Positions 5,092 to 30,354 of a stretch of 64,000 nucleotides of DNA are shown here, piece after piece. Position 1 is the first letter of the stretch; the number at the start of each line of letters is the position of its first letter. The stretch comes from Aquilaria yunnanensis (taxonomy: Eukaryota; Streptophyta; Magnoliopsida; Malvales; Thymelaeaceae). The DNA lies in assembly GCA_039654915.1 (NCBI GenBank), contig CM077599.1, positions 1,366,501-1,430,500 of the forward strand, given 5' to 3'. The translations under genes and the position numbers were made by a program. The notes beneath the pieces were generated by a model. That model made no database searches, was not told where the DNA came from, and worked only from the letters and a program-made list of their open reading frames with translations.

Positions 5092-5357
5092 TGTGGCAAC
5101 GTGTGGTTCGTTTTCGGGAGTCGCCACCAATCAGTTTTCTTAGGTCGATTGGTCACCTTAAAATTGGTCTGCGAGAGTTCGGGGATCGGGAGTACGGTTA
5201 CGCTAAAACAATATTATTATAGCGCCCAAAATTGGTACCTTAGTTGATTTTAATTTTGTTTTACTTTGCTTTTAAATAATTTTCAGTTAATTTAGAAATT
5301 TTAACTGAATTAGTCGAAATGTGGATTTTTAAGTTAATTTGTATAGAAGTTTATACT

Positions 5358-5444
5358 TCCGAACCATGGACTCTGCCGAGTCATTTGGACACGGAAGATT
5401 TGGATTCCGAACCATGGACTCTGCCGAGTCATTTGGACACGGAA
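5358..5444 (-). repeat. Two palindromic hairpin modules (GACTC/GAGTC type)
   Basis: Two 38-bp modules in tandem. In element sense each is TTCCG...CCA...GACTC-GGCA-GAGTC...TGG...CGGAA, an imperfect hairpin with outer, middle and inner stems. Related modules with compensating changes recur through every LTR in the window. Confidence 0.75.
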
Positions 5445-5536
5445 TTTGAAAAAAGTTTAATCAATTTAATCCATACCATAAATATGGATTTTTATCTTTT
5501 TATTTATTTTATTTATTTTAAAAGTTTGATATTTTC

Positions 5537-5574
5537 CAAACCGTAGATCCTGCCGGATCATCCGGATATGGAAA
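5537..5574 (-). repeat. Palindromic hairpin module (GATCC/GGATC type)
   Basis: Same architecture as the pair at 5358-5444, with inner stem GATCC/GGATC, middle stem CCG/CGG and outer stem TTTCCA/TGGAAA. Compared with the first type, both partners of several pairs have changed together. Confidence 0.7.
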
Positions 5575-5689
5575 TTGATTTATCGTAATTATTTAATTCT
5601 TATTATTATGAAATTAATTTTTAAATGGTAATTCTTTTTATTTATGAATGATTTTTAATACTAACTAAAAAAATTTATCTTTATATTTT

Positions 5690-6075
5690 TACTTCTTTTT
5701 TTACTTTCTTTCTTTTTCTTCTTTTTTACTTTTTTTACTTTTTTTTTTTTTAAATTTCTTTTAATTTCTTTTCTTTTCTTTCTTTTTTATTCTTTTCTTT
5801 CTTTCTTTTCTTTTTCTTTTTTCTTTCTTTTATCTTTCTTTTCTTTTTCTTATCTTTCCTTTCTTTTCTTTATCTTATCTTTCTTTTATTTTTCTTTCTT
5901 ATCTTTTCTTTTATTTTTTTTTATCTTTCTTTTCTTTCTTATCTTTCTTTTATTTTTCTTATCTTTTCTTTTATTTTTTTATCTTTCTTTTCTTTCTTAT
6001 CTTTCTTTTATTTTTCTTTCTTTTCTTTCTTTTATTTTTCTTATCTTTCTTTTTTTTCTTGTTTACTTTTTTTGT
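5690..6075. repeat. Pyrimidine-rich low-complexity tract
   Basis: Roughly 380 bp of TTTCTTTC/TTTATC-type sequence with almost no purines on the plus strand. The same tract occurs in the LTRs at 46139-46520 (as purines) and 47745-48115. It is noncoding. Confidence 0.85.
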
Positions 6076-6206
6076 TTTCTTGTTTAATGAAAGATATTTA
6101 TTATTTTAAAGGATTACTCAATTTATAAAAGAATTAAAAAAAATAATAATTAATTTTTATTTAATAAGAAGTTAATTTAAAAGAGTTTAAAAATAAAAAT
6201 TTTGAT

Positions 6207-6300
6207 CATGGTACGGGGCGTTGTTACTCAGCCAGACCCTCTTCACCAGGTGAAGCAGCTCAAAAGCGGGCACGAGACAGTTTCCAGCCAATATACCATG
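6207..6300 (-). repeat. Conserved 94-bp GC-rich block of the LTR
   Basis: The block is bounded by a 7-bp inverted repeat (CATGGTA/TACCATG) and has an internal palindrome CTTCACC-A-GGTGAAG. It is GC-rich while the surrounding hundreds of bases are almost pure AT. Copies at 45910-46003, 48254-48347 and 59727-59820 read the same even where the flanks have diverged. Function unknown. Confidence 0.8.
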
Positions 6301-6880
6301 AACTAAAAATTTTTATTTTTTTATTTATTTTTTTTTATTATTTTTTATTATTTTATTATTATTTTTTTATTATTTTTTTTTATTAAGAGAAACAAAAATT
6401 TTAAACAAAAGAAGAAAAGTTTTGATATTTATTTAATTTATTTTGGAATAAAAGATTATTTAACCGAAAACTTATATGTATTTTAAAACAAAAGTCTTGA
6501 TATTTTTATTTTTTATATTCTTCTTTGTTTGATGAAAGATTTTTTTTTTTTTAATTTTAATTTATATTTCTGAAAATATATCTAATCAATAAGTCAAAAA
6601 TATTTAAGAGAAAATTCAATTATTTTTGTTTTATTTTGTATTATTTTGAAATTATTTGATTAAGATTTTTATAAAAGAAACAAAAAGTTATATAATTTAA
6701 TAAGTAAAATATTACTGAATAAAATATTAACCCAAAATTTTTACGCTTTTTATTCTTTTTATTAATAAAGAAAACTAAAAAAAATTATATATTAATAGAT
6801 AATTAATATATTAGTCTAAAGTTTTTTTTTATTTTTTATAAAGAAAAAATTTATTTATATATTTTATTTAAAAATATTTC

Positions 6881-6918
6881 CGAGCCATGAATCCTGGCGG
6901 ATCATTTAGTCATGGAGT
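6881..6918 (-). repeat. Palindromic hairpin module (GATCC/GGATT type)
   Basis: Element sense gives CCATG...GATCC-GCCA-GGATT...CATGG. The inner stem closes with one G-U pair. It is the most internal of the four modules in this LTR. Confidence 0.6.
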
Positions 6919-7695
6919 TTTAATTTTTTTTTTTTCATTTCATTAATTATTAATTTTAAAGATGTATTAAAAGAATGATTTTATGTTTATTTATTTATTT
7001 ATTTTATTTTTGAATTATTTCATTATGTTTGTTTATTAAAAGGAATAAAAACTTTGTTTCAAAATAAAAAAAAGTAATTTTTATTAGCCTTTAGAAAATC
7101 ATTCACGTAAAATTCCTTTTTTTATCTTTTAATCATAAAAAAATTCAATTAATAAAGTGGGGCTTTTTGGCCATCCACTTTAATAACACAATAATAATAA
7201 AAGTTAGCACAATTAATATAGTTAGATTAGTTGGATTAGTTAGTTAATAACAATAAAAAAGGTTAGTAAAAGTTAGATTAAATTAATTAACAACAATAAT
7301 AAAAATTAGCCAAGTTTAATTAAATTAATTGTTAACAACAATAATAAAAAGTTAGTCAAGTTAATTAAATTAATTAATTAACAACAATAATAAAATTTAG
7401 CCAAATTAATTAATTGTTAATTAACCAAGTTGATTAAATTAATTAACAATAATAAAAGTTAGTAATAATGCAAAAATTAAAAGGTTAGTAACAATAATAA
7501 TGTTAAAAGTTAGTTGTTAGTAAGTTAGTTAACAAGTTAATAATAACAAAAAAAAAAAAAAAAGGTTAGTAACAATAACAATAATAAACAAATAAATACA
7601 CAAGTAAAAAAAATAAAGTTAGTAATTAATTCTGAAAAAAAAAACAAAATAAAAAGATTAGTGACCAAGATGAAAGAAGTTGAAAAGATGAAAGA

Positions 7696-8130
7696 TTAAA
7701 TTTGAATTTTACCTAGAAGTTGAAATTTTTGAATTTCCTGGGTACGCGGGCGCGACGCGGCAGAGAGGGGCAGGGGGGTGGGGTTGCTGGCGTGGCGGCA
7801 CGGGGCAGGGGCGACGGCGGCGCTACGGCGGGGCGGTGTGAGCGGCGGGGCGGCGAGGCGACGGGGCGGCTTGGCGGCTGGGGAGAGGAAACGAACGGCG
7901 GAGGAGGACGGCGGCGTCACGGCGAGATGGGCGGCGGGACGGCAAGGTGGAAGGACGGCGGCGGCGCGAGGGAGAGGGACGGCGGCGGCGAACGGCGTAG
8001 GGCGGCGGCGGCGGGCAGCGAGGGGCACGGCGGAGAGAGAGAGAGAGAGAGAGAGAGAGGGAACAGCAGAAAAAAAATTGGCTTTCTGGGGAAGAAGGGA
8101 AGAGGGCTGGGGCTAAGGGCTGTAATTTTC
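7696..8130 (-). other. GC-rich leader of LTR alpha
   Basis: About 430 bp rich in CCG/GCC lying roughly 100-500 bp downstream of the TATA box. In element sense a 110-codon frame is open (8028-7696), rich in Ala, Pro and Arg. It starts at GTG and no ATG begins it, so I read it as an untranslated leader. A (GA)n run lies at 8032-8056. The other LTR types carry unrelated GC-rich sequence at this place. Confidence 0.6.
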
Positions 8131-8200
8131 TCTTTTTTTAAAACGGAGCTCTAAGTTTTTTTGCTATTTTTTTCTGTGTTCAGAACTGAATTTGGGGGGG

Positions 8201-8208
8201 TATTTATA
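8201..8208 (-). promoter_or_regulatory. TATA box of LTR alpha (copy 1)
   Basis: TATAAATA in element sense, about 520 bp into the LTR and followed by CCCCCC and then the GC-rich leader. Transcription should start about 30 bp further on, defining the U3/R border. Equivalent boxes are at 44000-44007 and 50253-50260. Confidence 0.7.
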
Positions 8209-8727
8209 GAAGGAGCTTAGCTGAACTGTGGACGGATAAATTAATAAAAAATTTCAAACTTATCTCTTAAATTGGTAAAATGACAATTTTAGTCCTTTAC
8301 GTCTCTCAGCCTCTGGATAAGTTCCTGAAGCTTCTGATTTTGACAATTTTGTCGTTTTCTGTCAATTTGAGCCAAAAACGTCGGCAGGCTCAAAATTTTA
8401 TGTGAAAAACTGCCAAATGCTCCTGGAACTTTCAGAATTTGTCAATTTTGCCTGAAACTTCTTAATTTTGTCATTTTTACCTCAAACTTTTAATTTTTTT
8501 GTCATTTTTTCCTGAAATTTTATTTTTATTTCAAACACATACATATTCACACATATATTATTTTAAATCAAATCTTCTCAAAATAAAAATATATTTTAAA
8601 CTAATTAACATAATTAAAATTTTTTAGCAATAATAATAATAATAATGATAATTTTTTTAATTAGTTTTTTTTTTTTTTTTTAAAAAAAATTTTTTAAAAA
8701 AAACCCGGACGAAATTGGGTGTCAACA

Positions 8728-8742
8728 GCTGCCCCCCTTTGC
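8728..8742 (-). other. Polypurine tract of copy 1
   Basis: In element sense GCAAAGGGGGGCAGC, immediately before the LTR start TGTTGACACCC. This is where plus-strand DNA synthesis is primed in LTR retrotransposons. The same 15 bases precede every LTR start in the window. Confidence 0.9.
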
Positions 8743-8849: not shown

Positions 8850-9890
8850 TTTTAGAGCCTCTGCGATAAGAACTCTCCTATCGTTGAAGGGAAAATTTGA
8901 TAACTTTGAGGTTAAGGGTCCTACCTTAGAACCTCGACAATAGGAACTCTCCTATCGTTTGAAGTAAAATTGATGATTTTGAGGTTAAGGGTCCTACCTT
9001 AGAACCTCGACGATAGGAACTCTCCTATCGTTTGAAGGAAAATTGTTTGAATGAGGTTAAGGGTCCTACCTTAGAACCTCGACGATAGGAACTCTCCTAT
9101 CGTTTGAAGGAAAATTGATGATTTTGAGGTTAAGGGTCCTACCTTAGAACCTCGACGATAGGAACTCTCCTATCGTTTGAAGGAAAATTGATGATTTTGA
9201 GGTTAAGGGTCCTACCTTAGAACCTCGACGACAGGAACTCTCCTATCGTTTGAAGGAAAATTGATGATTTTGAGGTTAAGGGTCCTACCTTAGAACCTCG
9301 ACGATAGGAACTCTCCTATCGTTTGAAGGAAAATTGTTTGAATGAGGTTAAGGGTCCTACCTTAGAACCTCGACGATAGGAACTTTCCTATCGTTTGAAG
9401 GAAAATTGATGATTTTGAGGTTAAGGGTCCTACCTTAGAACCTCGACGATAGGAACTCTCCTATCGTTTGAAGGAAAATTGATGATTTTGAGGTTAAGGG
9501 CCCTACCTTAGAACCTCGACGATAGGAACTCTCCTATCGTTTGAAGGAAAATTGATTGTTTTGAGGTTAAGGGTCCTACCTTAGAACCTCGACGATAGGA
9601 ACTCTCCTATCGTTTGAAGGAAAATTGATGATTTTGAGGTTAAGGGTCCTACCTTAGAACCTCGACGATAGGAACTCTCCTATCGTTTGAAGGAAAATTG
9701 ATGATTTTGAGGTTAAGGGTCCTACCTTAGAACCTCGACGACAGGAACTCTCCTATCGTTTGAAGGAAAATTGTTTGAATGAGGTTAAGGGTCCTTCCTT
9801 AGAACCTCGACGATAGGAATTCTCCTATCGTTTGAAGGAAAATTGATGGAATGAGGTTAAGGAAATCTCCTTGAACCTCGAGCGAAATTT
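8850..9890 (-). repeat. 74-bp tandem array in the 3' untranslated region (copy 1)
   Basis: About 14 units of 73-75 bp. Each unit has a perfect 9-bp hairpin (ACGATAGGA, loop GAGT, TCCTATCGT in element sense) and a second imperfect inverted repeat (GAGGTT...AACCTC). Two unit variants differ in the spacer ('AAAATCATCAA' or 'ATTCAAACAA'). Hypervariable tandem repeats between the last gene and the 3' LTR are known in Ogre-type elements. Confidence 0.92.
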
Positions 9891-10398: not shown

Positions 10399-11028
10399 TT
10401 ATGGGATCGAACTGTTCGGGAAAGACTGTCGCGTCCAGTCTATCTGAATCATTGCTGGATCTGGTTCAGGAACAAAAGCTTGTATTTTATCTAGCAATTC
10501 TTCAGCAGTTGTTGCGGATATTATGATTCGCCGTGCCACTCTTGATATAAAATTCTTCTGCATAGCATAATCCATAAAAGCTATCAGACCTGTAAAGAAA
10601 TTGTTAACATTTAAAAGCCCAATGGGTTTCTTATGCAAATTAAGTTGGGCCATGGAAGCAATTTGAAAGACTTCTCCCAATGTGCCAAAACCACCTGGTA
10701 GAGCGATAAAAGCATCAGCATTTAAAAGCATTTGTAACACACGCTCTTGTAAATTTTTAACCACTAATTCTTCTCCAATCGTGCCCCCAGAAATAAATTT
10801 CAGAGGTCCAGGGATAATGCCCAGAACTTGACTTCCTCCTAGAGATGCTGCTGATGCTACACCTCCCATTAATCCGACACTACCTCCTCCATAAACTAAA
10901 TGTATTTTTCGCTCAGCTAATACTCTACCCAAATGGTTGGCTGCTTTTAAATACTCTTCATCTTTTCCAGGAAAAGCCCCAGAAAATACACAAATACTTC
11001 GGGATTTACGAGTTGGGGTTTTCTCCAT
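10399..11028 (-). CDS. LOG-family cytokinin riboside 5'-monophosphate phosphoribohydrolase (copy 1 cargo)
   Basis: A 209-residue intronless protein of the LOG (lysine-decarboxylase-like) family, which releases active cytokinin base from its riboside monophosphate in one step. Visible motifs are VYGGGSVGLMG (residues 45-55), the nucleotide-binding PGGFGTLGE (111-119), Arg96 and Glu119. The spacing of that Arg and Glu (23) matches the catalytic pair of known LOG enzymes. The family usually has Glu-Glu after GGxGT; here the first is Gly118. Length is normal for the family. The frame extends 20 codons upstream, but only to a TTG beyond the TATA box, so the ATG at 11028 is taken as start. Plant LOG genes normally have several introns, so this is a retrogene. 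A TATA box lies about 40 bp upstream. Confidence 0.9.
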   Translation of the reverse strand: MEKTPTRKSRSICVFSGAFPGKDEEYLKAANHLGRVLAERKIHLVYGGGSVGLMGGVASAASLGGSQVLGIIPGPLKFISGGTIGEELVVKNLQERVLQMLLNADAFIALPGGFGTLGEVFQIASMAQLNLHKKPIGLLNVNNFFTGLIAFMDYAMQKNFISRVARRIIISATTAEELLDKIQAFVPEPDPAMIQIDWTRQSFPNSSIP

Positions 11029-11060
11029 TCCTATCCTTACCCTTGTGAGAAAAGAGGATA

Positions 11061-11068
11061 TATTTATA
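11061..11068 (-). promoter_or_regulatory. TATA box of LOG (copy 1)
   Basis: TATAAATA about 40 bp before the LOG ATG, leaving a very short leader. It sits just after the tandem upstream repeats and supports transcription of LOG independent of the LTR promoter. Confidence 0.65.
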
Positions 11069-11074
11069 GAGATG

Positions 11075-11585
11075 AAGAGATAAGGCAATAATTTTATTTT
11101 TCAAGAATGGATACATTATTGCCAGCTATTCATAGTAGTCACGGGTATGACTCTGGTCAGGTATGGGTATACTATCGTTAAAAGAGGAGGAAAATTTTCA
11201 AAATAGCTGCTAGCATGTACAGTAGTCGCGACTGTAGCTTATGTCAGGAGTAGGTACATGATTGTCGGATGAGAAGGAAAATTTCAAAAGTGGCAGGTAT
11301 ATACAGTAGTCGTAATTATAGCTCATGTCAGGAATGGGTACATTATGGGAGGAAAATTTCAAAAGCGTCAGCTAGCATGTACAGTATCGTGACTATGGCT
11401 TATGTCAAGAGTGGATACATTATTGCTGAAAGAGGAGGAAAATTTCAAAAGCGACAGCTAGCACGTACAATAATCGTGACTTTGGTTCATGTCAGGAGTG
11501 GATACATTATTACCAAAAGGGGAGGAAAATTTCAAAAGCGACAGCTAGCACGTACAGTAATCGTGACCTTGTTCCGTCTTCTACT
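11075..11585 (-). promoter_or_regulatory. Tandem upstream modules of LOG (copy 1)
   Basis: About six degenerate units of roughly 85 bp. Each contains, in element sense, a TACTGTAC.TGCTAGC block, TTTTGAAATTTTCCTCC, and AATAATGTA.CCACTCCTGACAT. Similar single units precede CRP2 and CRP3. The array ends at the LOG TATA box, which suggests an amplified enhancer or promoter module. Confidence 0.65.
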
Positions 11586-11617
11586 GGCTTTGCGTCCAGT
11601 AACGGCTTCAATGCTTT

Positions 11618-12166
11618 CTATGAATCAGTGATTTGCATCTCATCTAGCTTTTTCACAAACTGGCAAACAGGGTCGTTTAGGGTCAGATTCCCAAGACTGT
11701 AACGTTCTCGTTCTTTTTGGAGAATTATCCATAATCCAACAACCTCAAATTGCACTATTCCGCAAGAATGCGCTTCAAGAACCTCTCGGATATCTTCCAG
11801 AGATTCCTTACGCAAGCCATTCTTGATGAATTTTATTCTATCATTACGATTTCTGGTGATCACTCCTGGAGAACGACATTTATTGCCGCAAATCCACCAT
11901 CCACAATTGTGACAGACGCCTAGCCTCTTTGCTCTTCTCTTTTTGGCATAAACGCTTTTACCAAAGCCGGGCATACGGGGAAAGAACGCATCTGGAACTT
12001 CACCAGCCGAACGAACTTTAGCTTCGATTAGCCACCGCACATTATCAGGAATGCCTTTGTGCATAAATAGTCGGAATCGTTCACATCTAGCTTGATAAAC
12101 CTTTTTAAGAACATTTATTGGGAAAGAAGGGAAATATTTTCGTAGAGCGGAAAGAGAAGGCTCCAT
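11618..12166 (-). CDS. CRP3: cysteine-rich zinc-finger-like protein (copy 1 cargo)
   Basis: Third of three tandem paralogues. From the ATG at 12166 it is 182 residues, the same length as CRP1 and CRP2; an upstream in-frame ATG at 12181 would add five residues, but the paralogues start at the equivalent of 12166. A basic run (AKKRRAKR, about 74-81) is followed by Cys85, Cys88, Cys93 and Cys97. The stretch after the cysteines reads SPGVITRNRNDRIKFIKNG. The layout resembles the cysteine-rich nucleic-acid-binding proteins of carlaviruses and relatives, some of which suppress RNA silencing or act on transcription in the nucleus. Function here is inferred. It has its own TATA box upstream (mirror of 29653-29659 in copy 2). 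Confidence 0.82.
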   Translation of the reverse strand: MEPSLSALRKYFPSFPINVLKKVYQARCERFRLFMHKGIPDNVRWLIEAKVRSAGEVPDAFFPRMPGFGKSVYAKKRRAKRLGVCHNCGWWICGNKCRSPGVITRNRNDRIKFIKNGLRKESLEDIREVLEAHSCGIVQFEVVGLWIILQKERERYSLGNLTLNDPVCQFVKKLDEMQITDS

Positions 12167-12430
12167 TGATGAATGAGGCATTTAAGAGAAAAAGAAAGAA
12201 ATTAGTGATTGTAGGAAATGGAAATAACTGAATTTGGGAGTTATGGAGTACCGTATCCAGAAGGAAGAACACGCATTTATAGTGATGAAAGGATAATGCG
12301 TTTATTACACTTACGGAAGTAAGTACATTATTGCCAAAAGAAAAGACAAATGACAGCTTATATGTACAGCAATCATGACTGTGGCTCTCATCTTCCACTA
12401 ATTCATGTCCAGTAATGGCTTCAATGCCTT

Positions 12431-12979
12431 CTATAAGTCGGGGATTTGCTTCCCATCTAGTTTTCTTACAAACTGACAAACGGGGTCGTTTAAAATCACA
12501 TTCCCAAGACTGTAACGGTTTCGTTCTTTATGGTAAGTCCTCCATAAACCGATAATTTCACCTTGCACTTTTCCACAAGAATGCGTTTCAAGAGTCTCTC
12601 GGATATCTTTCAGAGACTCCTTACGCAGGCCATTCTTAATGAATTTTCTTTTATCTTCACGATTTATGGAGATGTATCCTAAAGAGCGACATTTAGTATT
12701 ACAATTCCATCGCCCACATTTATAACACACGCCTAGTCTCTTTGCTCTTCGCCTTTTGGCATAACGGCTTTTACCTAAACCGGGCATGCGGGGCATAAAT
12801 GCATCTGGAACTTCACCCGCCAAACGGACCTTAGCTTCAATTATCCACTGCACATTATCGGGAATGCCTTTGCGTGTAAAAACTCTGATTCTTTCACATC
12901 TAGCAAGGTAGATCTTTTTAAGGACTTTTAGTGGGAGGGAAGGAAAGTATTTTCGCAGTACAGAAAGAGTAGAATCCAT
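12431..12979 (-). CDS. CRP2: cysteine-rich zinc-finger-like protein (copy 1 cargo)
   Basis: 182 residues, a paralogue of CRP1 and CRP3. Near-identical opening (LRKYFPSLP), basic run KRRRAKR at about 75-81, then Cys85, Cys88, Cys93 and Cys97 (CX2CX4CX3C), followed by SLGYISINREDKRKFIKNG. A further conserved SCG near residue 135 and an LNDPVCQFV segment near the end are shared by all three paralogues. No signal peptide or membrane segment is visible. The basic patch could serve nuclear entry or nucleic acid binding. A TATA box lies upstream, after the CRP1 stop. Confidence 0.82.
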   Translation of the reverse strand: MDSTLSVLRKYFPSLPLKVLKKIYLARCERIRVFTRKGIPDNVQWIIEAKVRLAGEVPDAFMPRMPGLGKSRYAKRRRAKRLGVCYKCGRWNCNTKCRSLGYISINREDKRKFIKNGLRKESLKDIRETLETHSCGKVQGEIIGLWRTYHKERNRYSLGNVILNDPVCQFVRKLDGKQIPDL

Positions 12980-13268
12980 TGATGAGAGAAGAATTTGAGA
13001 GAAGAGGGAAATGAATCAGTTATTGCAGGAAACTGGAATAATCGACTTTAGAAGTCACGGGGTATCTTATCTGTTGTTTAATCAGAAGGAAGAACACGCA
13101 TTTATAGTGATGAAAAGGGATAACGTGTCGATTACACTTAGGGGAGCATGTACATCTGTCAAAAGAAAATGCAAATTTTTCCAAATATAACAAACTGTAT
13201 GTACAGTAATTGTGACTGTGGCTTACATCTTCCACTGGTTTTACGTCCAGTAACGGCATTAACGGCTT

Positions 13269-13817
13269 CTATGAGTCGAGGATCTGCTTCCCATCTAGCT
13301 TTCTTACAAGCCGGCAAACAGGGTCGTTTAAAGTCAGATTCCCGGGACTGTAACGGTCTCGTTCTTCATGAAAAATACTCCATAAATCAAGAATTTCACG
13401 TTGCACAGATCCACAAGAATGCGTCTCAAGAGTCAATTGGATATCATCCAATGAGTCCTTACTCAAGCCATTCTTGATGAACCGTATTTTATCTTCTCGA
13501 TTATTGGAGATCATTCCTAAAGAACGACACCTAGTCTTACAAGTCCACCTACCACATTTATGGCAGACTTGTAATCTTTTCGCTCTTCTTTTTCTGGCAT
13601 AAGAACTTTTGCCAACACCAGGCATGTAAGACACAAATGCCTCTGGGATTTCACCTGCCAGACGAACCTTAGCTTCAATTAACCACCGCACATCTTCAGG
13701 GATTCCTTTATGCATCAGAGCTCTTAATCGTTCACAGCGAACTTGGTAGATCTTTTTTAGGATGTTCATTGGGAGAGAAGGGAAATACTTTCGCAAGGCG
13801 GAAAAAGTAGGATCCAT
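13269..13817 (-). CDS. CRP1: cysteine-rich zinc-finger-like protein (copy 1 cargo)
   Basis: 182 residues. SSYARKRRAKR (71-81) is followed by CHKC (85-88), Cys93 and Cys97, giving CX2CX4CX3C, then SLGMISNNREDK and FIKNG. An SSYAR-basic run leading straight into a Cys pair, then a Gly-Ile-Ser-x-Asn-like turn and Phe-Ile, is the pattern I associate with the carlavirus cysteine-rich protein family; the N-terminal 60 residues look unrelated to it. Unlike CRP2 and CRP3 I see no clear TATA box just upstream, so it may use a different promoter. This allele (SYMPGVG, LQVCHKC) is shared with copy 2 but differs from copies 3 and 4. Confidence 0.82.
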   Translation of the reverse strand: MDPTFSALRKYFPSLPMNILKKIYQVRCERLRALMHKGIPEDVRWLIEAKVRLAGEIPEAFVSYMPGVGKSSYARKRRAKRLQVCHKCGRWTCKTRCRSLGMISNNREDKIRFIKNGLSKDSLDDIQLTLETHSCGSVQREILDLWSIFHEERDRYSPGNLTLNDPVCRLVRKLDGKQILDS

Positions 13818-15205
13818 TTTCTAGGAGGAAGTAAAAGAAAGAAGGGGTGAAGGAATCAGTTATTATGGGCAACTGAGAGAACCGACTTGAGAGTCACGGA
13901 GTACCGTATCCGCCGTTTAACCGGAAAAGTGGATCCTACTTTATTTTAGTATCATAGATATTTCTTATCTTTGATATCTCATCAGGCATGACATTGATCC
14001 AGTCCTTGATTATTGAATCCATTGTCTGCTTTCGACGACAATATTTCTCGATATCCACGCTTATCTTTGACCATAGCTATTTCTTATCTTGGATACCGCT
14101 AAGCTGGCGTCAATTCTGTCCATCCCGGTGTAGCCTCGATTATTGAATTGATTACCAGGATTTTGACAATATTGTCTACTTTATCCTTGAATTGCTGATG
14201 GGGCTGGGTCCACTATATCAACTGTGCATCCAGCGGTAGATTGGTAAAAACGGATGTCACTGAGACGTCAGCTTATACTGCTGTGACTGTGCGGTGGATA
14301 CGCTTCCCATTTGATCCTTGTTCTGTATGCCATGCATGCATGATGTGAAATGCATGAATGCAGAGCATGTGTAACTGATGGATTTATTTTTTATATCTTT
14401 GCTTTACTGGATCCTCTTTGTAATTGCCTTCTATCGTTGAATCTCTTTATGCTTTCCAACTGTTGTCCATTGTTTCACTTTCCAGCTGTTGTTCATTGTC
14501 TTGCTTTCCAGCTGTTGTTCCTTGTCTTGCTTTCCAGCTGTTGTTCATTGTCTCGCTTTCCAGCTATTGTCCATTGTCTAAAAAGCCTAACTCTTTTCAA
14601 AAATCTTCTTTCCTTGATTTGTTCTTAAATTTTGGCTTCAATTTCCTTAATGTCCGCCTCGTACTTTATGCCTCTCTGGATAATTGTCCCTGTTGAGATA
14701 TTCGTGAGTATGATTCTTTCTTGCTGACATGGACGTGTTAAGACTTCTGAAGCGATCATTCAGGCTACCACCAAGGCTATCTCCCAAAGATTTGTTACTC
14801 CTTCTTCTTTGTTAGCCTATGTTCTGTGCCGCTCGCAAAGCAGGACCTCAATCTTACCTGTTTTAATTCATAAAGCTTATCAAAGTAATCTACGGTCTTT
14901 GTTTTTTCTAAGTTTTAATTATTACTATTCTTCCTTCAAAAGTCATAATTTATTGCACACTTAAGGCTAGTAAGAATGTGAGATTTGAAGGAAAAGAACT
15001 GGATAGAAGCGACTTTAGCATTTTGAACGTGAGAATCTAAGGTAAGTTAAAGAAAATTGGCTTTTTATTTATGAGTAATATGAAAATCTTGGGTACAGAT
15101 AGATAATGAAAGTGTAAGAGAAGAAAGCTCTCTTTGACAACTTTGATCAAATAAACTTTGGTAACCTTGTATCCACTTCTCCCCTTCTGTTTGAAAATTT
15201 CTTCA
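13818..15205 (-). other. pol to CRP1 spacer (copy 1)
   Basis: 1.39 kb with no credible gene. It contains a 26-bp minisatellite (14453-14580) and GATAAG-type motifs near CRP1. It is the inverted counterpart of 26772-28159 in copy 2. Confidence 0.6.
14453..14580. repeat. 26-bp minisatellite, five units
   Basis: Units start at 14453, 14479, 14505, 14531 and 14557, each close to TTTCCAGCTGTTG followed by TTCATTGTCTTGC. The mirrored array in copy 2 is at 27397-27525. Copies 3 and 4 carry only a single unit or less here. Confidence 0.85.
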
Positions 15206-18200
15206 TTATGCAAAGTATTTCTTTACTGCATCCGAATTTACTGGCTTCGGTAATTCTCGTCCATCCATTTCTGTCAGAATTAGTGCCCCTCCTGAAAATG
15301 CTTTCTTCACGACATATGGCCCGTCATAATTTGGTGTCCATTTTCCTCTTGAATCATGTTGCATGGGTAAAATTTTCTTGAGCACTATGTCACCTTCGTG
15401 AAATTGTCGTGGGCGAACCTTTTTGTTGTAAGCACGAATCATCCTTCTTTGATAAAGTTGCCCATGGCAGAGGGCTATCATTCTTCTTTCATCAATTAGA
15501 TTTAATTGCTCGTATCTAGCTTTGACCCATTCTGCTTCTCCTAATTGAGTATCCATTAGTACCCTTAATGAAGGAATTTCAACTTCGATGGGCAATACAG
15601 CCTCCATACCGTATACCAGAGAAAAAGGTGTTGCTCCAGTAGAAGTACGGGTAGAAGTTCTATAAGCATGTAGTGCAAAAGGTAACATCTCATGCCAGTC
15701 CTTGTAAGTGACGATCATCTTTTCAACAATTCTCTTGATATTTTTATTGGCCGCTTCTACTGCACCATTCATCATCGGTCGATAAGGTGCTGAATTGAGA
15801 TGCTTGATTTTGAATTGCTGGCACAAAGTCTGCATCATTGCATTATTCAGGTTCGTGGCATTGTCTGAGATGACACATTCCGGCGGCCCATAACGACAAA
15901 TGATTTCTTTCTTAATGAACCGGCATACCACCTTTTGAGTCACACTTGCATATGACATAGCTTCTACCCATTTAGTGAAGTAGTCAATTGCCACTAGGAT
16001 GAATTTGTGACCATTGGAAGCTTTAGGGGTAATGGCTCCAATGACGTCAATTCCCCACATGGCAAAAGGCCAAGGTATTGCTGTTACATTAAGAGGGGTG
16101 GGTGGAGCTTGGATCTTGTTGGCATATATTTGACATTTGTGACATTTTCTCACGTGATTAATACAATCACTTTCCAATGTGAGCCAATAGTAGCCAGCCC
16201 TCATTATTTGTCTTGCCATGGTATGACCACTAGTGTGTGCTCCACATATTCCAGAATGAACTTCTTCCATGATCTTTCGTGCTTCATGAGTATCTACACA
16301 GCGAAGTAGCATCGAGTCTGCGGTTTTCTTGTAGAGTATGTCTAGGTTTAAAAGAAAACCCATTGACAATCTTCGTAGAAATTTCTTGTCATTTTCTGAT
16401 GCTTCTAGTGGATATGTTCGTTCTTGGAGGTATTTCTTGATATCATGATACCAAGGCTTTCCATCCAATTCTTCTTCGATGCTCATGCAATAAGCTGGAG
16501 AATCTATTATTTTCATCTCGAACACAGGAGTATGCTCGGGGTCACTGATCTTGTACATAGCAGCCAAAGTAGCTAAAGCATCCGGTATTTGATTATCTTC
16601 CCTTGGAAGATGATGGAAGCTTATACTGTTGAATTTTCGAGACAAGTCTAGTATGAGCTTTTGGTAAGGGATCAATTTTGAATCCCTTGTCTCCCATTCT
16701 CCGTTGATTTGATATATGACTAATGCGGAATCCCCATAAACTCGGAGATCTCGCACTTTCAATTCCAGTGCCATTTGGAGTCCCATAGCACATGCCTCAT
16801 ACTCTACTATATTGTTGGTACAAGGAAATGTAATTTTTGCTGTAAGAGGGAATTGCTCTCCACTTGGAGAGATGAGTATGGCTCCAATCCCTTGTCCCAA
16901 AGAATTAGATGCTCCATCGAATGCCATTTTCCATGTTTCATCATCTTTAGAGACTTCCTGTTCTATCGTCATTATATCTCCATCAGGAAACTCCATTTTC
17001 ATTGGCTCATAATCATCCAATGCTCTATCAGCCAGATATTCAGCAATCACACTCCCTTTTACAGCCTTTTGGGTGACATACTGTATGTCGTATTCAGACA
17101 ACAGCATTTGCCATTTTGCGATCCTGCCTGATAAAGCTGGTTTCTCAAAAATGTACTTAATGGGATCAGTCTTGGAGATTAGCAATGTGGTGTTGTTGAG
17201 CATGTAGTGTCGTAGTCGGTGTGCTACCCATGCAAGGGCACAACAGGACTTTTCTACTATTGAGTATTTCGCTTCATATGTGGTAAGCTTCTTGCTCAAA
17301 TAGTAAATTGCGTGCTCTTTCTTGCCTGTCTCATCACGTTGACCCAATACGGATCCTAATGAAGAATCCTGTATGGATAAATATAGAATCAACGATTCTC
17401 CAGATCGGGGTGGTACCAAGACTGGTGGATTTGATAGATATTGCTTGATTTTCTCGAATGCTTCTTGGCATTCGTTATTCCACTCGATCGGATTGTTCTT
17501 CTTCAGTGATTTGAAAAGCGGTTCACACTTGGACGTCAATTGTGATATGAACCTTGCTATGAAGTTGATTCTACCCAGAAAACTTCTTACTTGTTTTGGA
17601 GTCTTCGGGGGTTGCATTTCTTGTATCGCTTTGACTTTACTCGGGTCAACTCGAATCCCGTCCTTGCTGACTATGAAACCCAATAACTTTCCTGAAGAGG
17701 CTCCAAAAGTACATTTGGCAGGATTCAACTTCAATTGATATTTGCGAAGTCTATCGAATAGTTTTCTTAGCACTTTTAGATGCCCCCCAGCAGTGAAAGT
17801 TTTGGCGATCATGTCGTCCACATATACTTCAATTTCTTTATGCATCATGTCATGGAACAACGTGACCATGGCTCTTTGATATGTAGCACCAGCATTCTTT
17901 AACCCGAAAGGCATCACCTTATAGTAGAAGGTACCCCAAAGGGTAATAAAAGCAGTTTTTATCATGTCATCTGGATCAAGTTTGATTTGATTGTATCCAG
18001 AAAAACCATCCATGAAGGAAAAGTAGGAGTTTCCTGCGGTATTATCCACCAGTGTATCAATATGAGGAAGTGGGAAGTTATCTTTAGGACTGGCTTCGTT
18101 CAAAGGCCGGTAGTCCTGACAAACTCTTAGTTTCCCACTTTCTTTCTTTTCGACTGGGACAATGTTAACCACCCATTCTGTATATTCAGCGACCCCAAGA

Positions 18201-18604
18201 AATCCTGCATCCCACAGCTTTCGAATCTCGTCTTTTACTCTTAAGATTAACTCCGGCTTTAATCTTCGTAACTTCTGTCTGACAGGCTTCGCCCCAGGCT
18301 TCAAGGGTATTTTGTGTAGTACTATGTCTGAGCTTAAGCCAGGCATATCTTGGTATGACCAAGCGAATACATCCACATATTCTTTCAATAAATGGACTAA
18401 TTCTTCTTTTTCTTCAGGAGGGAATAAAGTGCCAATCTTGACTTCTTTTACATCCTGACTATCTCCCAGGTTGAATACCTCAGTTGGTTCTTGACTTGTT
18501 GCTCTTTCTTTTTCATCTCGCTCAATCATTTTTAATAGCTCAGGAGATACTTGAAGATCTTCGTCATCCGAGTCGGTAGTGTTTACAGGATTATCAAAGT
18601 TCAT
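15206..18604 (-). CDS. pol: pol polyprotein: reverse transcriptase, RNase H, integrase (Tat/Ogre lineage)
   Basis: Intact 1132-codon frame. The reverse transcriptase has the FSFMDGFSGYNQI block and the YVDD catalytic motif near residue 260. An RNase H domain follows (MAFDGASN about 560, with later Glu and GDSALV). The integrase has a His-His-Cys-Cys zinc motif (HSGICGAH to CHKC, about 785-830), WGIDVIG near 850, ISDNATN and a Glu in NGAVEAANK (the D, D, E triad). There is no C-terminal chromodomain, as expected for the Tat lineage. The frame is separate from gag-pro; in Ogre elements the two are joined by splicing. Lack of any stop or frameshift suggests recent activity. Confidence 0.95.
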   Translation of the reverse strand: MNFDNPVNTTDSDDEDLQVSPELLKMIERDEKERATSQEPTEVFNLGDSQDVKEVKIGTLFPPEEKEELVHLLKEYVDVFAWSYQDMPGLSSDIVLHKIPLKPGAKPVRQKLRRLKPELILRVKDEIRKLWDAGFLGVAEYTEWVVNIVPVEKKESGKLRVCQDYRPLNEASPKDNFPLPHIDTLVDNTAGNSYFSFMDGFSGYNQIKLDPDDMIKTAFITLWGTFYYKVMPFGLKNAGATYQRAMVTLFHDMMHKEIEVYVDDMIAKTFTAGGHLKVLRKLFDRLRKYQLKLNPAKCTFGASSGKLLGFIVSKDGIRVDPSKVKAIQEMQPPKTPKQVRSFLGRINFIARFISQLTSKCEPLFKSLKKNNPIEWNNECQEAFEKIKQYLSNPPVLVPPRSGESLILYLSIQDSSLGSVLGQRDETGKKEHAIYYLSKKLTTYEAKYSIVEKSCCALAWVAHRLRHYMLNNTTLLISKTDPIKYIFEKPALSGRIAKWQMLLSEYDIQYVTQKAVKGSVIAEYLADRALDDYEPMKMEFPDGDIMTIEQEVSKDDETWKMAFDGASNSLGQGIGAILISPSGEQFPLTAKITFPCTNNIVEYEACAMGLQMALELKVRDLRVYGDSALVIYQINGEWETRDSKLIPYQKLILDLSRKFNSISFHHLPREDNQIPDALATLAAMYKISDPEHTPVFEMKIIDSPAYCMSIEEELDGKPWYHDIKKYLQERTYPLEASENDKKFLRRLSMGFLLNLDILYKKTADSMLLRCVDTHEARKIMEEVHSGICGAHTSGHTMARQIMRAGYYWLTLESDCINHVRKCHKCQIYANKIQAPPTPLNVTAIPWPFAMWGIDVIGAITPKASNGHKFILVAIDYFTKWVEAMSYASVTQKVVCRFIKKEIICRYGPPECVISDNATNLNNAMMQTLCQQFKIKHLNSAPYRPMMNGAVEAANKNIKRIVEKMIVTYKDWHEMLPFALHAYRTSTRTSTGATPFSLVYGMEAVLPIEVEIPSLRVLMDTQLGEAEWVKARYEQLNLIDERRMIALCHGQLYQRRMIRAYNKKVRPRQFHEGDIVLKKILPMQHDSRGKWTPNYDGPYVVKKAFSGGALILTEMDGRELPKPVNSDAVKKYFA

Positions 18605-18908: not shown

Positions 18909-21900
18909 TTACTTTGGAAAGCTTTCGATTATAACAGGCAGTTCTATCGCCTCCCAGTTGTTCAGCACATCCCGTGGGCCACAAGGTTGAACGAGCTCCT
19001 CCTCTTCAGGTGAATCGCTGATGATTGCCTGAATAGAAAGACTTTCAAAAGACTTGTTGATGTTGATAGTCAGCTTGCCTTCATTGTCATTTTGCGGAAT
19101 GAGACCACCACTCACGAACGTTTCGGTGATTTCAGGGATATCCAGATTTCTTTCCTGGAGAGGATGCCCTGTTAATCGTGCAATCCTCTTTTCTCTCTTT
19201 TCAGCTATTGCCTTCATTTTATCATGTCTTGTCGGTGTGAAGCCTAGGCCGTATTTCCCTTCATTTGCGGATATTTTCAATGGCTCTGGGATTCCTTGTA
19301 AATCTTGTCCCAAACCTAACCCCGGTGAGTATCCTCCTTTTATCATGAGTTTGGCGACCATGCGACTTGTTTTAGAGATGTTAGGAACGGGTTCTTCTCC
19401 ATATTCACTGACATAAGCAGCATTGACAATCTCAAAAGACCTGAAGGAGCAATCAGGTATATTTTCATTGACCTCAACATATTGAGCATCCGCAGGTCTA
19501 GATAGCAGAATGTCTTCTTCAGCAAAGACTGTGATTATCTTTCCTTCAATGATGAATTTCATTTTTTGATGTAATGAGGAAGGAATTGCTCCAGCCATAT
19601 GGATCCATGGTCTTCCCAGCAGACAAGTATAAGATGGAGAAATGTCCATGACTTGGAATGTGATATGGAAAAGACAGGGACCAATCCCAATTGGTAGCTC
19701 TATTTCTCCAACCACATCTCTCTTTGTTCCGTCAAATGCTCGAACAACAATATGACTGTTGTTGAGGTGTGATGGGTCTAAACCGATCTTATGTAAAGTT
19801 TCTAATGGCATTACATTTAGAGCTGATCCATTGTCGATCAGAACTCTAGCCATAATCCGATCTTTGTATTTAATCGAAATATGTAGAGCCTTAGAGTGAC
19901 CCCTTCCTTCTGCTGGTATCTCATCGTCAGTGAATGTGATGAGATTTTGTGCCGTGATGTTGTTGACAAGGTGGTCAAAGTTGTTCACGGAGATATCTTG
20001 TTCAACATAAGCCTTATTCAGGACTTTGAGAAGAGCTTCTCGATGGGCATCAGAACTTAAGAGTAATGAAAGTATGGAGATCTTTGCTGGCAGACGGTTC
20101 AACTGCTCCACGATACTGTATTCACTTTGCTTTATGAGCTTGAGAAACTCAGTAGCTTGTTCATCTGTTACTGCTCGAGGCATCTCTTGCTCTTTAGATA
20201 TGTTAATAGGTTCATTTGCTGGATCCGTAACATTCTTCTCTTGTTGGAGCTTGTTCATTTGCTCGGGAGAATAACACCGACCGCTTCTAGTCATGCCCCC
20301 AACTTCTAACGGAGTTGATGTGATGTTAGAAGTATAGCCATAGTTCCATGGAACAGTTTTGTCTGATTTGTACGGGAATGGCTTTGGAACTTGAATTCTT
20401 AAAGGCTTGAGAGCAGATTTTGAGATTGGAATGACTAGTGGTCTTGGCATGATATTGACTTCTTGTTCTTTAATTATCACATTCACGTCATCCTCTTTAT
20501 CTGACATAAAAACGATGATTTGGGAGGAGTCCATGAGACTTTGTAGACTTTTACGGAATTCTGGGCATTCTTGGATAGAATGACTCTTACTGTTATGAAA
20601 GTTGCACCACTCCTCATCCTCGACTTCTTTATTTCCAGAAGACTTTCCTATGATAATCCCTTCTTTCACAAGGCATGAATATACATGCTTAAGAGGGGTT
20701 ATGATATCATTGACTGTTTTCTTCATCGGCCAGTATTCTTCCATCATATTGACTGGTTTGGCTTGATGAGGAGGCAATGGATTATGAGTGACGTTTGGTT
20801 CATCGGAAAAGTCCAACCACTTTGACTCAATTAATTGTTGGACTATACGCTTCAATGCTATGCAATTTTCAAGTCCGTGGCCCACGGCACCATCATGATA
20901 TGGGCAATTTAGTTTAGGGTCATACCATGTTGGATATGGGGGTTCGAATGGCCTTGTGGGAATTGGGTGAATGAGTTGGCTCTGGATGAGTTTTGGATAT
21001 AACTCAGTATAAGTCATGGGAATCGGTGCGAAAATTTCTCTTGGTCTTGGTGCAGGCATTGGAGGAGTCGGAACAGGTGGCCGTAACTGATTAGGCCTGT
21101 TGAGAGGATAATTGTTGGGTCTATTGGGAAGATAATCACTGGGCCTATTTGGAGGATAATCATTGGGCCTATTGGTAGGATAATAATTGGGCCTGTTGGC
21201 AGAATAGGATAGGCGAGGTCCGGTAGCCACGGTACCCACGAGGGGAATCCCTCTTCCTCGTCCGATTTGTTGTATTTCTTCATCTTTTCTTCTGGATGGT
21301 CCTCCTCTTTTCATAGGATCACTAAAGGACTCAGTAATCTTCCCGGTTCTGATACCATGCTCGATCCTTTCTCCAGACATGACTACGTCGGAGAAGTTAG
21401 TTGCCGCATTGCCAATAAGTTTGTCATAATATGGGTATTTCAGTGTCTGGACAAATAAAGTGACCATTTCTCTTTCTGTCATGGGTGGCTGTACTTGTGC
21501 AGCTAAGTCCCTCCATCGTTGGGCGTATTCCTTAAAAGTTTCTGTTTTTTTCTTCTCCATGTTTTGGAGAGTTTGGCGATCCGGAGCTAAGTCCATAACA
21601 TGTTTATAGTTGCCGATGAAGGCCTGAGCAAGGTCATTCCAAGTTTTTATGTTTCTTGGACCTTGGCTTAGATACCACTGTAATGCTGATTTTGTGAGAC
21701 TTTCCTGAAAAAGTGCGATCCACACCTTCTCATCTTTGGTAAGTGGTTGTAGTCTTCTGAGAAACAAAGTGATGTGAGTGATGGGATCACTCGTTCCATC
21801 GTATTTTACGAAATCTGGCACCTTAAAATCTGAAGGGATTACGACGTCTGGCACTAAGCAGAGGTCATCCACTGAAAGGGATCCAAATATAGTGCCTCCT

Positions 21901-22220
21901 TCAATGGCTCTCAGTCTTTTCTCTATTGTCTCGATTTTTTGAGATTCTGCTTCATCTTTTGGTAATGTCTTCTTCTCTTCCTGTACAGTGTCTTGTTTCA
22001 GGTGAACACTAGCAGAGGGTCCTGATTCTTGAAACAGGTTTTCTTGGACTGAGACTCGTTGCGGGGTGAATCCCGGGGGATAAGTGGGATCTTGTACTTC
22101 TTTGATGGGGACTTGAGTTGCTTTCCCTTTGATTAATTCCATCAATTGTTTCATCTGTTCTGACATACTTTCAATCTTGGACTCCATCTCCATGAGACGT
22201 CCTTCGGCTTGTTCTGCCAT
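18909..22220 (-). CDS. gag: gag-pro polyprotein with G-patch (Tat/Ogre lineage)
   Basis: Intact 1103-codon frame starting at ATG. A retrotransposon gag core lies at about 130-300 (WIALFQESLTKSALQWYL, then EYAQRWRDLAAQV). A proline/asparagine-rich low-complexity stretch (about 330-380, repeated NRPNDYPP) follows. Two zinc-knuckle-like Cys/His motifs come next (CPYHDGAVGHGLENC and CNFHNSKSHSIQEC). The aspartic protease active site is VLIDNGSALNV near 793. A G-patch (GGYSPGLGLGQDLQG, about 965) lies near the end; G-patch domains are typical of this lineage and bind RNA. It provides particle and protease functions. Confidence 0.95.
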   Translation of the reverse strand: MAEQAEGRLMEMESKIESMSEQMKQLMELIKGKATQVPIKEVQDPTYPPGFTPQRVSVQENLFQESGPSASVHLKQDTVQEEKKTLPKDEAESQKIETIEKRLRAIEGGTIFGSLSVDDLCLVPDVVIPSDFKVPDFVKYDGTSDPITHITLFLRRLQPLTKDEKVWIALFQESLTKSALQWYLSQGPRNIKTWNDLAQAFIGNYKHVMDLAPDRQTLQNMEKKKTETFKEYAQRWRDLAAQVQPPMTEREMVTLFVQTLKYPYYDKLIGNAATNFSDVVMSGERIEHGIRTGKITESFSDPMKRGGPSRRKDEEIQQIGRGRGIPLVGTVATGPRLSYSANRPNYYPTNRPNDYPPNRPSDYLPNRPNNYPLNRPNQLRPPVPTPPMPAPRPREIFAPIPMTYTELYPKLIQSQLIHPIPTRPFEPPYPTWYDPKLNCPYHDGAVGHGLENCIALKRIVQQLIESKWLDFSDEPNVTHNPLPPHQAKPVNMMEEYWPMKKTVNDIITPLKHVYSCLVKEGIIIGKSSGNKEVEDEEWCNFHNSKSHSIQECPEFRKSLQSLMDSSQIIVFMSDKEDDVNVIIKEQEVNIMPRPLVIPISKSALKPLRIQVPKPFPYKSDKTVPWNYGYTSNITSTPLEVGGMTRSGRCYSPEQMNKLQQEKNVTDPANEPINISKEQEMPRAVTDEQATEFLKLIKQSEYSIVEQLNRLPAKISILSLLLSSDAHREALLKVLNKAYVEQDISVNNFDHLVNNITAQNLITFTDDEIPAEGRGHSKALHISIKYKDRIMARVLIDNGSALNVMPLETLHKIGLDPSHLNNSHIVVRAFDGTKRDVVGEIELPIGIGPCLFHITFQVMDISPSYTCLLGRPWIHMAGAIPSSLHQKMKFIIEGKIITVFAEEDILLSRPADAQYVEVNENIPDCSFRSFEIVNAAYVSEYGEEPVPNISKTSRMVAKLMIKGGYSPGLGLGQDLQGIPEPLKISANEGKYGLGFTPTRHDKMKAIAEKREKRIARLTGHPLQERNLDIPEITETFVSGGLIPQNDNEGKLTININKSFESLSIQAIISDSPEEEELVQPCGPRDVLNNWEAIELPVIIESFPK

Positions 22221-26414: not shown

Positions 26415-26771
26415 GTACTAATGGATACTCAATTAGGAGAAGCAGAATGGGTCAAAGCTAGATACGAGCAATTAAATCTAATTGATGAAAGAAGAATGAT
26501 AGCCCTCTGCCATGGGCAACTTTATCAAAGAAGGATGATTCGTGCTTACAACAAAAAGGTTCGCCCACGACAATTTCACGAAGGTGACATAGTGCTCAAG
26601 AAAATTTTACCCATGCAACATGATTCAAGAGGAAAATGGACACCAAATTATGACGGGCCATATGTCGTGAAGAAAGCATTTTCAGGAGGGGCACTAATTC
26701 TGACAGAAATGGATGGACGAGAATTACCGAAGCCAGTAAATTCGGATGCAGTAAAGAAATACTTTGCATAA
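26415..26771 (+). pseudogene. pol: pol C-terminal fragment (copy 2)
   Basis: The last 119 codons of pol, after the integrase catalytic core, read VLMDTQLGEAEW to the stop and match the copy 1 pol C-terminus. The first bases abut LTR sequence, so this is a deletion derivative with no catalytic domain. Confidence 0.93.
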
Positions 26772-30316: not shown

Positions 30317-30354
30317 AAAGCATTGAAGCCGTTACTGGACGCAAAGCCAGTAGA

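Follow-up and report, generated by a model that had tools for sequence, protein, structure and literature searches.

The window (the whole 64,000-nucleotide stretch of Aquilaria yunnanensis DNA analysed here) contains a Ty3/gypsy element that its domains place in the Tat clade, as an Ogre type, and that occurs in high copy number; an accessory module lies between its pol and 3′ LTR. The module comprises three homologues of carlavirus-type nucleic-acid-binding proteins (NABP1–3) and a homologue of the cytokinin-activating enzyme LOG. The cargo has been under purifying selection while the element replicated. It is likely that selection maintains NABP1–3 and LOG together as accessory genes of the element.

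Architecture of the element and its copies

Copy 1 lies on the minus strand. The series begins with a DUF7745 ORF, gag and pol; these have the same sense as the cargo and sit upstream of it. NABP1–3, LOG, a hairpin-rich tandem array, the polypurine tract and the 3′ LTR follow.

22414..23715, minus: DUF7745/plant mobile domain-like ORF, upstream of gag (PF24924, 2.6e-32; plant mobile domain PF10536, 8.8e-6)
18909..22220, minus: gag, protease-like and G-patch ORF (Retrotrans_gag 5.8e-12; G-patch 9.4e-8; Asp_protease_2 weak, 0.013)
15206..18604, minus: pol of Tat/Ogre type, with RT, RNase H, second RNase H (RVT_3) and integrase (Pfam)
13818..13924, minus: non-coding leader before NABP1
13269..13817, minus: NABP1, CX2CX4CX3C (PF05515 1.5e-6; PF01623 3.5e-5; both above cut-off)
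13100..13107, minus: TATA-like box of NABP2 (−128)
12431..12979, minus: NABP2 (PF05515 9.6e-8; PF01623 2.1e-5)
12275..12282, minus: TATA-like box of NABP3 (−116 from Met6)
11618..12181, minus: NABP3 (PF05515 7e-6; PF01623 1.7e-4)
11184..11567, minus: tandem repeats of 87 bp separating NABP3 from LOG
11062..11069, minus: TATA-like box of LOG (−41)
10399..11028, minus: LOG, cytokinin riboside 5′-monophosphate phosphoribohydrolase homologue (Pfam above cut-off; alignment with relatives)
8852..9862, minus: 73-bp tandem array of about 14 units with strong RNA hairpins (folding z −7.2 for 301 nt), shortly before the polypurine tract
8728..8740, minus: polypurine tract AAAGGGGGGCAGC (sequence reading)
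5110..8727, minus: 3′ LTR, far end approximate (self-comparison and sequence reading)

The original prediction had placed three genes, named CRP1–3, and LOG uninterrupted on the sense strand between pol and the 3′ LTR; all four ORFs are as it described. The 3′ LTR starts with TGTTGACACCC at 8727, downstream of the cargo. In pol, RT_RNaseH (403–505) is followed by RVT_3 (562–680) and by integrase from 770, so that an additional RNase H accompanies the original one. The gag-protease and RT-RH-INT regions occupy two ORFs 304 bp apart (18604 to 18909), with a putative intron between them. The extract of PMC6317226 used here describes an additional RNase H besides the original for the Tat clade and gag and pol ORFs about 300 bp apart for Ogre; of Ogre elements, it gives 57% as having a plant-mobile-domain ORF. 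The PF10536 match of the DUF7745 ORF scores 25.6 bits, below the curated cut-off of 34.9. Self-comparison and reading of the 64-kb window did not reveal a 5′ LTR belonging to copy 1, nor was an intact 5′ LTR found anywhere in the window.

Three further copies of the module are present.

26415..33319, plus: copy 2, with the last 118 residues of integrase, NABP1–3 (28160, 28955, 29753), LOG (ORF 30846–31535) and tandem array; LTR start at 33425
38434..43356, plus: copy 3, with NABP1–3, LOG and tandem array; no pol match
50905..55827, minus: copy 4, with NABP1–3, LOG and tandem array; no pol match

The four-gene set is thus found in four copies as had been predicted; gag-pol is present only in copy 1 (1/4), and copies 3 and 4 form the two arms of an approximately 19.4-kb palindrome (98.7% identity by self-comparison), which does not fit the description of four intact elements. 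The copies are near-identical except in NABP1, where 45 nucleotides separate copies 1 and 2 from copies 3 and 4. Because of this near-identity, the intactness of the four is in itself little evidence. Rearranged copies of which one has gag-pol make the window weak evidence, and it is the genome that decides.

The accessory genes

The genes first described as zinc-finger-like can be assigned more sharply. All three NABPs exceed the curated cut-offs of both PF05515 and PF01623 and, by sequence, are homologues of carlavirus-type nucleic-acid-binding proteins; binding is predicted. Each protein combines a stretch of basic residues with a CX2CX4CX3C cluster. The match to the viral NABP spans this basic and cysteine core only, in an element protein of 182–187 residues. 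The best 120 of 234 matches were taken as relatives, and two rows outside 140–220 residues were dropped before counting. Among the aligned NABPs, 60/61 match Carla_C4 and 58/61 match Viral_NABP at E 0.01. No solved structure matched the NABP profile at E 1, and no relative was found among IMG/VR viral contigs.

The LOG reading frame probably starts at the inner ATG at 11028, giving 209 residues and matching the start of its relatives. Two features of the family are relevant here, the PGGxGTxxE motif and the Lys beside the conserved Arg of At2g37210, whose roles we take as presumed. The alignment places the motif and its preceding Arg in the window LOG, and a Lys next to the conserved Arg in At2g37210. 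The window protein has Val at this position, and Met, Ile, Leu or Val occurs there in 115 of the 121 aligned LOG sequences. As the Lys is missing, LOG activity is not certain. An EAR-like LxLxL tail is carried by 99 of 120 LOG relatives among the matches listed (best 120 of 7577), not by the window's family.

TATA-like boxes precede three of the genes. Leaving aside gene matches that do not start near the first residue or have fewer than 150 bases upstream, the box of NABP2 is seen in 25/28 upstream stretches (5/8 in a diverged subfamily), that of NABP3 in 30/30 from 29 loci (8/8 diverged) and that of LOG in 27/27 (6/6 diverged, five of them at −49). NABP2, NABP3 and LOG may each be expressed from their own TATA promoter. 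NABP1 is without a TATA box, and splicing or read-through may be needed. Its leader is alike in locus L001 and in NABPs linked to Athila-like elements of the same genome.

For these Athila-like elements 91 integrase matches were scored; the top four were sampled, and in 4/4 the integrase is followed by NABP. The remaining 87 matches, mostly from a less similar group, may lack NABP. In a tree that includes 32 rows chosen from the 120 labelled P, Athila-like and Ogre NABPs form a common clade (support 100/99). Such grouping implies that the gene crossed retrotransposon lineages, and on this sequence evidence a virus-like NABP gene appears to have passed between the two. Within the clade the tree sets no branching order for Athila-like and Ogre NABPs, so transfer may have run in either direction and more than once. 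The Ogre element may have obtained its NABP, leader included, from an Athila-like donor, by a single transfer and later tripling or by several transfers. We did not find LOG within about 1.3 kb beyond NABP in 2/2 Athila-like copies; it is therefore the NABP part alone that is shown to be common to both lineages in this genome.

Recurrence and selection across the genome

The whole genome (842 Mb) was searched with the LOG and NABP proteins. The best 150 of 3689 first-look LOG candidates are all 100% identical to the window LOG over 229 residues; three of them lie in the window itself, and the matches span C1 to C7. The best 150 of 7052 NABP candidates all score above cut-off. Twenty young dispersed loci on seven chromosomes were sampled from the 150 LOG matches. 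All 20 have three NABPs followed by LOG in one sense, a recurrence that, like the Pfam scores of the NABPs, exceeds chance, and in 19 Ogre pol lies upstream; the exception, L030, keeps the cargo with no pol nearby. The polypurine tract and LTR start are the same as in the window at 7/7 loci where the fetched stretch extended that far. The proposal of a conserved multi-gene cargo in a Ty3/gypsy element is borne out by this linkage, which is not confined to a single locus. Since the young loci were picked for an identical LOG, low cargo divergence in them is biased; their low divergence in cargo relative to pol, in a profile from which L030 was left out, may reflect ascertainment rather than recombination.

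Eight short loci represent the diverged subfamily, and gene order agrees wherever genes are visible. LOG lies at the edge of the stretch in 6/8. At L007 NABP1 was not found, though the stretch extends far enough. Open frames remain at 2/8 loci for NABP1, 1/8 for NABP2 and 4/8 for NABP3, many NABP frames being broken.

The dN/dS ratio is 0.11 for NABP1a/b and 0.23–0.42 among the NABP paralogues. Between the window and the diverged copies, all of which share one branch, NABP gives 0.22–0.53 once the loci with no open frame are set aside (6, 7 and 4 of 8 for NABP1, 2 and 3). For LOG the same comparison gives 0.14–0.22 in five copies and 0.36–0.39 in pieces of a sixth. Sequences with no equal-length open frame were excluded (pol of L025, L028 and L030; NABP1 of L030 and L040; NABP2 of L029 and L030; NABP3 of L026). 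The ratios between subfamilies (0.14–0.53) are well below 1, so that the value near 1 which would have told against the original prediction is not seen between them. Among the old diverged copies themselves the ratio is 0.73–1.35, as drift after insertion would lead one to expect. Constraint between subfamilies combined with drift after insertion is the signature of selection acting on the element.

Function, alternatives and known systems

A host-manipulation role of the cargo is plausible. In the manner of carlavirus p12, the NABPs may bind nucleic acid, weaken silencing by small RNAs and change the transcription of host genes; LOG would release active cytokinin and thereby keep the cells that harbour the element dividing and permissive. 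We offer this combination of counter-silencing and cytokinin release tentatively. Equally tentative is a broader proposal, that NABP is a mobile counter-defence gene common to plant LTR retrotransposons and RNA viruses, joined here with LOG and moving with its leader between lineages. Such elements would reprogramme host cells in a virus-like manner, by silencing suppression and hormone activation, which could aid the very high copy number of one family.

The cargo could instead serve replication of the element, an alternative we regard as doubtful and somewhat less probable than counter-silencing. The NABPs would then serve as chaperones of RNA, in packaging or in nuclear import, perhaps with the 73-bp array as their target, and LOG would be a repurposed nucleotide-binding protein. 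The basic run and cysteine cluster would suit such roles, as would the strong folding of the array (z −7.2) shortly before the polypurine tract. Loss of the LOG Lys in 115/121 sequences and retention of the cargo with no pol nearby (L030; copies 3 and 4) point the same way. However, LOG keeps PGGxGTxxE and purifying selection, for which catalysis would be the simplest reason. Passive transduction, in which the cargo would be host or viral genes picked up accidentally and retained as functionless passengers, appears very improbable. Plant LTR elements are known to capture genes (PMC7264820), and the ratios near 1 within old copies and the broken NABP frames are what it would give; against it stand the low ratios between subfamilies, the persistence of three NABPs in constant order at the sampled loci, the conserved TATA-like boxes of NABP3 and LOG, and the retention of NABP in two element lineages. 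The window itself, with its large palindrome, truncated LTRs and inverted joins, might suggest that misassembly or a nested pile-up has placed unrelated genes beside pol. That is hardly credible given pol, three NABPs and LOG at 19/20 dispersed loci on seven chromosomes, with the same polypurine tract and LTR junction at 7/7 reached. Assembly artefact is therefore rejected for the module; this rejection does not extend to the palindrome.

Plant retrotransposons have long been known to contain extra ORFs, most of which have no assigned role. The four accessory genes here belong to families of known biochemistry, one of them in common with plant RNA viruses. A long-standing question thus becomes testable, namely whether such elements encode silencing suppressors and genes for host reprogramming of their own. 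The occurrence of NABP in both Athila-like and Ogre elements of a single genome also suggests that accessory genes can move from one retrotransposon lineage to another.

Steinbauerova (2011) reportedly described two Athila-like elements similar to LOGL4, and LOG-carrying gypsy elements of the Citrus/Populus type are said to be Athila-type, whereas the window element is Ogre-type. According to the extract of PMC9289625, which cites Steinbauerova (2011), a YgdH (LOG-type) domain occurs in consensus sequences of gypsy elements from Populus and two Citrus species, as it does in the window element; the extract gives a domain match only, with no mention of NABP genes, of gene order or of selection. 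The presence of LOG in plant gypsy elements is thus already published, and the original statement that no element of this kind had been described does not hold. Our literature search found no print record of NABP genes in such elements or of the combination of NABP with LOG.

The window NABPs have the families PF05515 and PF01623 in common with carlavirus NABPs such as chrysanthemum virus B p12, which we take to be a member of both. The likeness is in the core only; the window proteins have 182–187 residues, reside in a retrotransposon and have a predicted function, whereas p12 is described in the excerpt of PMC7588395 as a nuclear transcriptional activator and silencing suppressor. The Ogre/Tat elements of Neumann 2019 (PMC6317226, in part) have in common with ours a second RNase H before integrase and split gag and pol ORFs, and the DUF7745 ORF may correspond to their plant-mobile-domain ORF; NABP and LOG genes, both present here, are not mentioned in that part. 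In Phalaenopsis, a large Ogre-like gypsy element described in PMC9289625 likewise has an accessory gene, coding for an AlkB m6A demethylase, and the AlkB kind is also reported from Betaflexiviridae, the family including carlaviruses. AlkB is a different enzyme and a single gene, in contrast to the set of four. Retand, as the cited portion of PMC11963269 presents it, likewise has tandem repeats and additional ORFs in the region that separates pol from the 3′ LTR; the characterised ORFs, TRP28, are antisense, whereas the four ORFs of the window element are sense and belong to other families.

The cargo element in the window and its copies elsewhere

The cargo-bearing element lies on the minus strand, its features running from the DUF7745-like ORF through gag, pol, NABP1-3 and LOG to the 73-bp array, polypurine tract (PPT) and LTR.

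22414-23715, minus: DUF7745/plant-mobile-domain-like ORF
18909-22220, minus: gag with G-patch
15206-18604, minus: pol (RT, RNase H, second RNase H, integrase)
13269-13817, 12431-12979, 11618-12181, minus: three related genes, NABP1-3 (viral-type nucleic-acid-binding proteins)
10399-11028, minus: LOG (cytokinin-activating-enzyme homologue)
between LOG and LTR, minus: 73-bp tandem array, then PPT
at 8727, minus: LTR, start TGTTGACACCC
8852-9862, 32071-33319, 42346-43356, 50905-51915, 62701-63558: 73-bp tandem arrays before 3' LTR

The cargo had been placed between pol and the 3' LTR on the sense strand, and this is what we observe: all genes are on the minus strand, with pol upstream and the PPT/LTR downstream. 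No intact 5' LTR was found within the window. Repeated RNA hairpins are predicted in the 73-bp array (z -7.2, 301 nt of copy 1), which is a possible candidate for a binding or packaging site.

Four NABP-NABP-NABP-LOG sets, all open, are located within the window. The original prediction counted four element copies with the set intact; the open sets stand, but gag-pol is present in only one (c1), 118 integrase residues are left in another, and the remaining two (c3, c4) form the arms of a palindrome roughly 19.4 kb long (37422-56834, centre near 47128) that spans LTR end to LTR end. The arms are 98.7% alike (92 mismatches, 33 gap positions), and the palindrome may be real or an assembly error. 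The sets differ pairwise by at most 4 bases in NABP2, NABP3 and LOG; this near-identity and the single gag-pol make the four copies alone weak evidence. NABP1 differs between c1/c2 and c3/c4 at 45 bases, with 30 or 31 of these changes falling on third positions (dN/dS 0.11). At 63653-64000 a plus-sense gag piece (aa 427-542, 100% identical) sits beside a minus-sense tandem array, an inverted join.

The 842 Mb assembly, in which the window occupies C7:1366501-1430500, was then searched; the candidate totals below come from a loose first look and do not stand for verified copies. The best 150 of 3689 LOG protein candidates were scored and all are identical over 229 aa; they are spread over chromosomes C1 to C7, and three are window copies. 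A distant-LOG search (150 of 3605 candidates scored) gave 149 without a stop and included C8, while the 150 scored of 7052 PF05515 candidates all exceeded the cut-off, a few with an internal stop. Twenty dispersed 10-kb regions around LOGs identical to the window's (L022-L041) were sampled. In 20/20, LOG is accompanied by three NABP stretches of like orientation; NABP2 is broken in L029, and the middle NABP of L030 resembles NABP3. Ogre pol lies upstream in 19/20 (nearly full length in 18, its last part alone in L025); L030 has diverged gag pieces without pol. A same-sense PPT/LTR junction follows LOG in all seven loci whose stretch was long enough. In the loci sampled, the predicted linkage of cargo to pol and LTR thus extends well beyond the window.

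Eight short loci (L002-L009) represent a subfamily 78-87% alike in NABP protein. Gene order agrees wherever genes are visible, with LOG at the edge in 6/8; NABP1 was not found in L007. Among 2-kb stretches upstream of the cargo at four of these loci, one holds Ogre pol at 91-94%, two hold only faint matches to gag (about 47%) and the fourth gave no match. The cargo-bearing copies L030, L048 and L049 show only diverged gag pieces, with no pol in the stretch fetched; they are possibly non-autonomous derivatives retaining the cargo.

Selection and upstream signals

With all diverged-subfamily copies on one branch, dN/dS between window and subfamily is 0.22-0.27 for NABP1 (2/8 loci open), 0.53 for NABP2 (1/8) and 0.25-0.33 for NABP3 (4/8). 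LOG gives 0.14-0.22 in 5/6 diverged copies, of which one has a stop, and 0.36-0.39 for the pieces of the sixth. These values (0.14-0.53) lie below 1, as selection on the cargo would require. Old NABP copies compared with each other within the subfamily give 0.73-1.35. Taken together, the two ranges indicate that the cargo genes are selected while the element replicates and drift once inserted. In the young copies pol has a pN/pS of 0.12; NABP1, NABP2 and NABP3 have 0.24, 0.12 and 0.22, and LOG has 0, the last because these loci were picked for identical LOG. When window 18700-10300 is compared with L022-L041 without L030, these copies, chosen by their LOG, diverge by about 6% in pol but by about 0.1-1.2% in the cargo, non-coding spacers included; recombination, a recent sweep or sampling bias could each account for the drop.

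Against a chance level of 3-5% per 260-bp stretch (simple shuffles of the window's stretches), and in stretches mostly from near-identical young copies, a TATA-like box is observed at about -128 of NABP2 in 25/28 (diverged subfamily 5/8), about -116 of NABP3 in 30/30 (8/8) and -41 or -49 of LOG in 27/27 (6/6), and before NABP1 in 0/27. In the simplest reading, the NABPs and LOG would work as a module, weakening silencing and holding cells in division.

Cargo proteins and the origin of NABP

NABP1-3 all score above the curated Pfam cut-offs for both Viral_NABP (PF05515) and Carla_C4 (PF01623); at E 0.01, 58/61 and 60/61 aligned NABP sequences match these families respectively. Each of the three has a basic run with CX2CX4CX3C after it, and PF05515 had zero matches among fourteen control genomes. 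Proteins of the LOG family release active cytokinin. The window's LOG matches PF03641 at 1.6e-30 (Pfam). Of the solved structures, Arabidopsis At2g37210 is the one that it matches best; PGGxGTxxE and the Arg before it are kept, but the neighbouring Lys has given way to another residue (Met, Ile, Leu or Val in 115/121 aligned sequences). A C-terminal basic run then LxLxL is present in 99/120 listed LOG relatives and lost in the window's family; we take this tail to resemble a nuclear signal plus EAR repression motif.

Contig L001 carries an integrase that shares about 31% identity with the window's and is presumably Athila-like from its motifs; a NABP lies about 200 bp past it. This GTDB contig is filed under Candidatus Nomurabacteria yet is evidently plant retrotransposon DNA, and so by appearance a contaminant in a bacterial MAG. 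One Rhamnella gene model joins NABP to the end of an integrase (70% identity with the L001 integrase across 111 residues, 23% with the window's), and a second joins NABP to LOG. Two listed NABP-LOG pairs in equal-sized records (P0010 and P0138, 8723; P0009 and P0170, 4511) are a lead only. Searching the window's genome with the L001 integrase, 91 matches were scored of 26992 candidates; the best four are 70-72% identical, with stops, and each is followed within 250 bp by a same-sense NABP. In the two Athila-like copies examined, no LOG was found in the roughly 1.3 kb of sequence past the NABP.

A 44-row tree groups these four NABPs with the Ogre NABPs and two listed relatives (support 100/99), the other 30 listed NABPs falling outside, and the leader preceding the ATG is alike across all those compared. 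The common group and leader argue for a transfer of NABP, leader included, between Athila-like and Ogre elements in the line of this plant. We tentatively prefer the direction from Athila to Ogre, because the Athila-like link recurs in L001 and Rhamnella and because the Athila-like copies here are older and broken. NABP1-3 may have arisen by tripling in this line or by repeated capture: without the Athila rows they form one clade with P0001 and P0006 (100/98), the pattern expected from tripling, and with those rows the common group shows no firm branching order.

Relation to described elements

Steinbauerova in 2011 reportedly noted a similarity to LOGL4 in two Athila-like elements. PMC9289625, citing Steinbauerova 2011, already describes LOG (YgdH) in gypsy elements from two Citrus species and from Populus. 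The original prediction of a kind of element not previously described is therefore not supported for LOG; for NABP genes in a retrotransposon and for the NABP-LOG combination, no paper was found in the open-licence literature searched. The parts covered of Vicient and Casacuberta 2020 (PMC7264820) mention neither NABP nor LOG, and a term search of the available text of Vicient 2025 (PMC11963269) returned neither. According to the sections consulted of PMC6317226, what marks Ogre and Retand within the Tat clade is that an additional RNase H precedes the integrase, after the first RNase H; a short gap separating two ORFs is one mark of Ogre. The window's pol has the same domain order, and the element shares with Ogre a gag and pol split by a gap into two ORFs.
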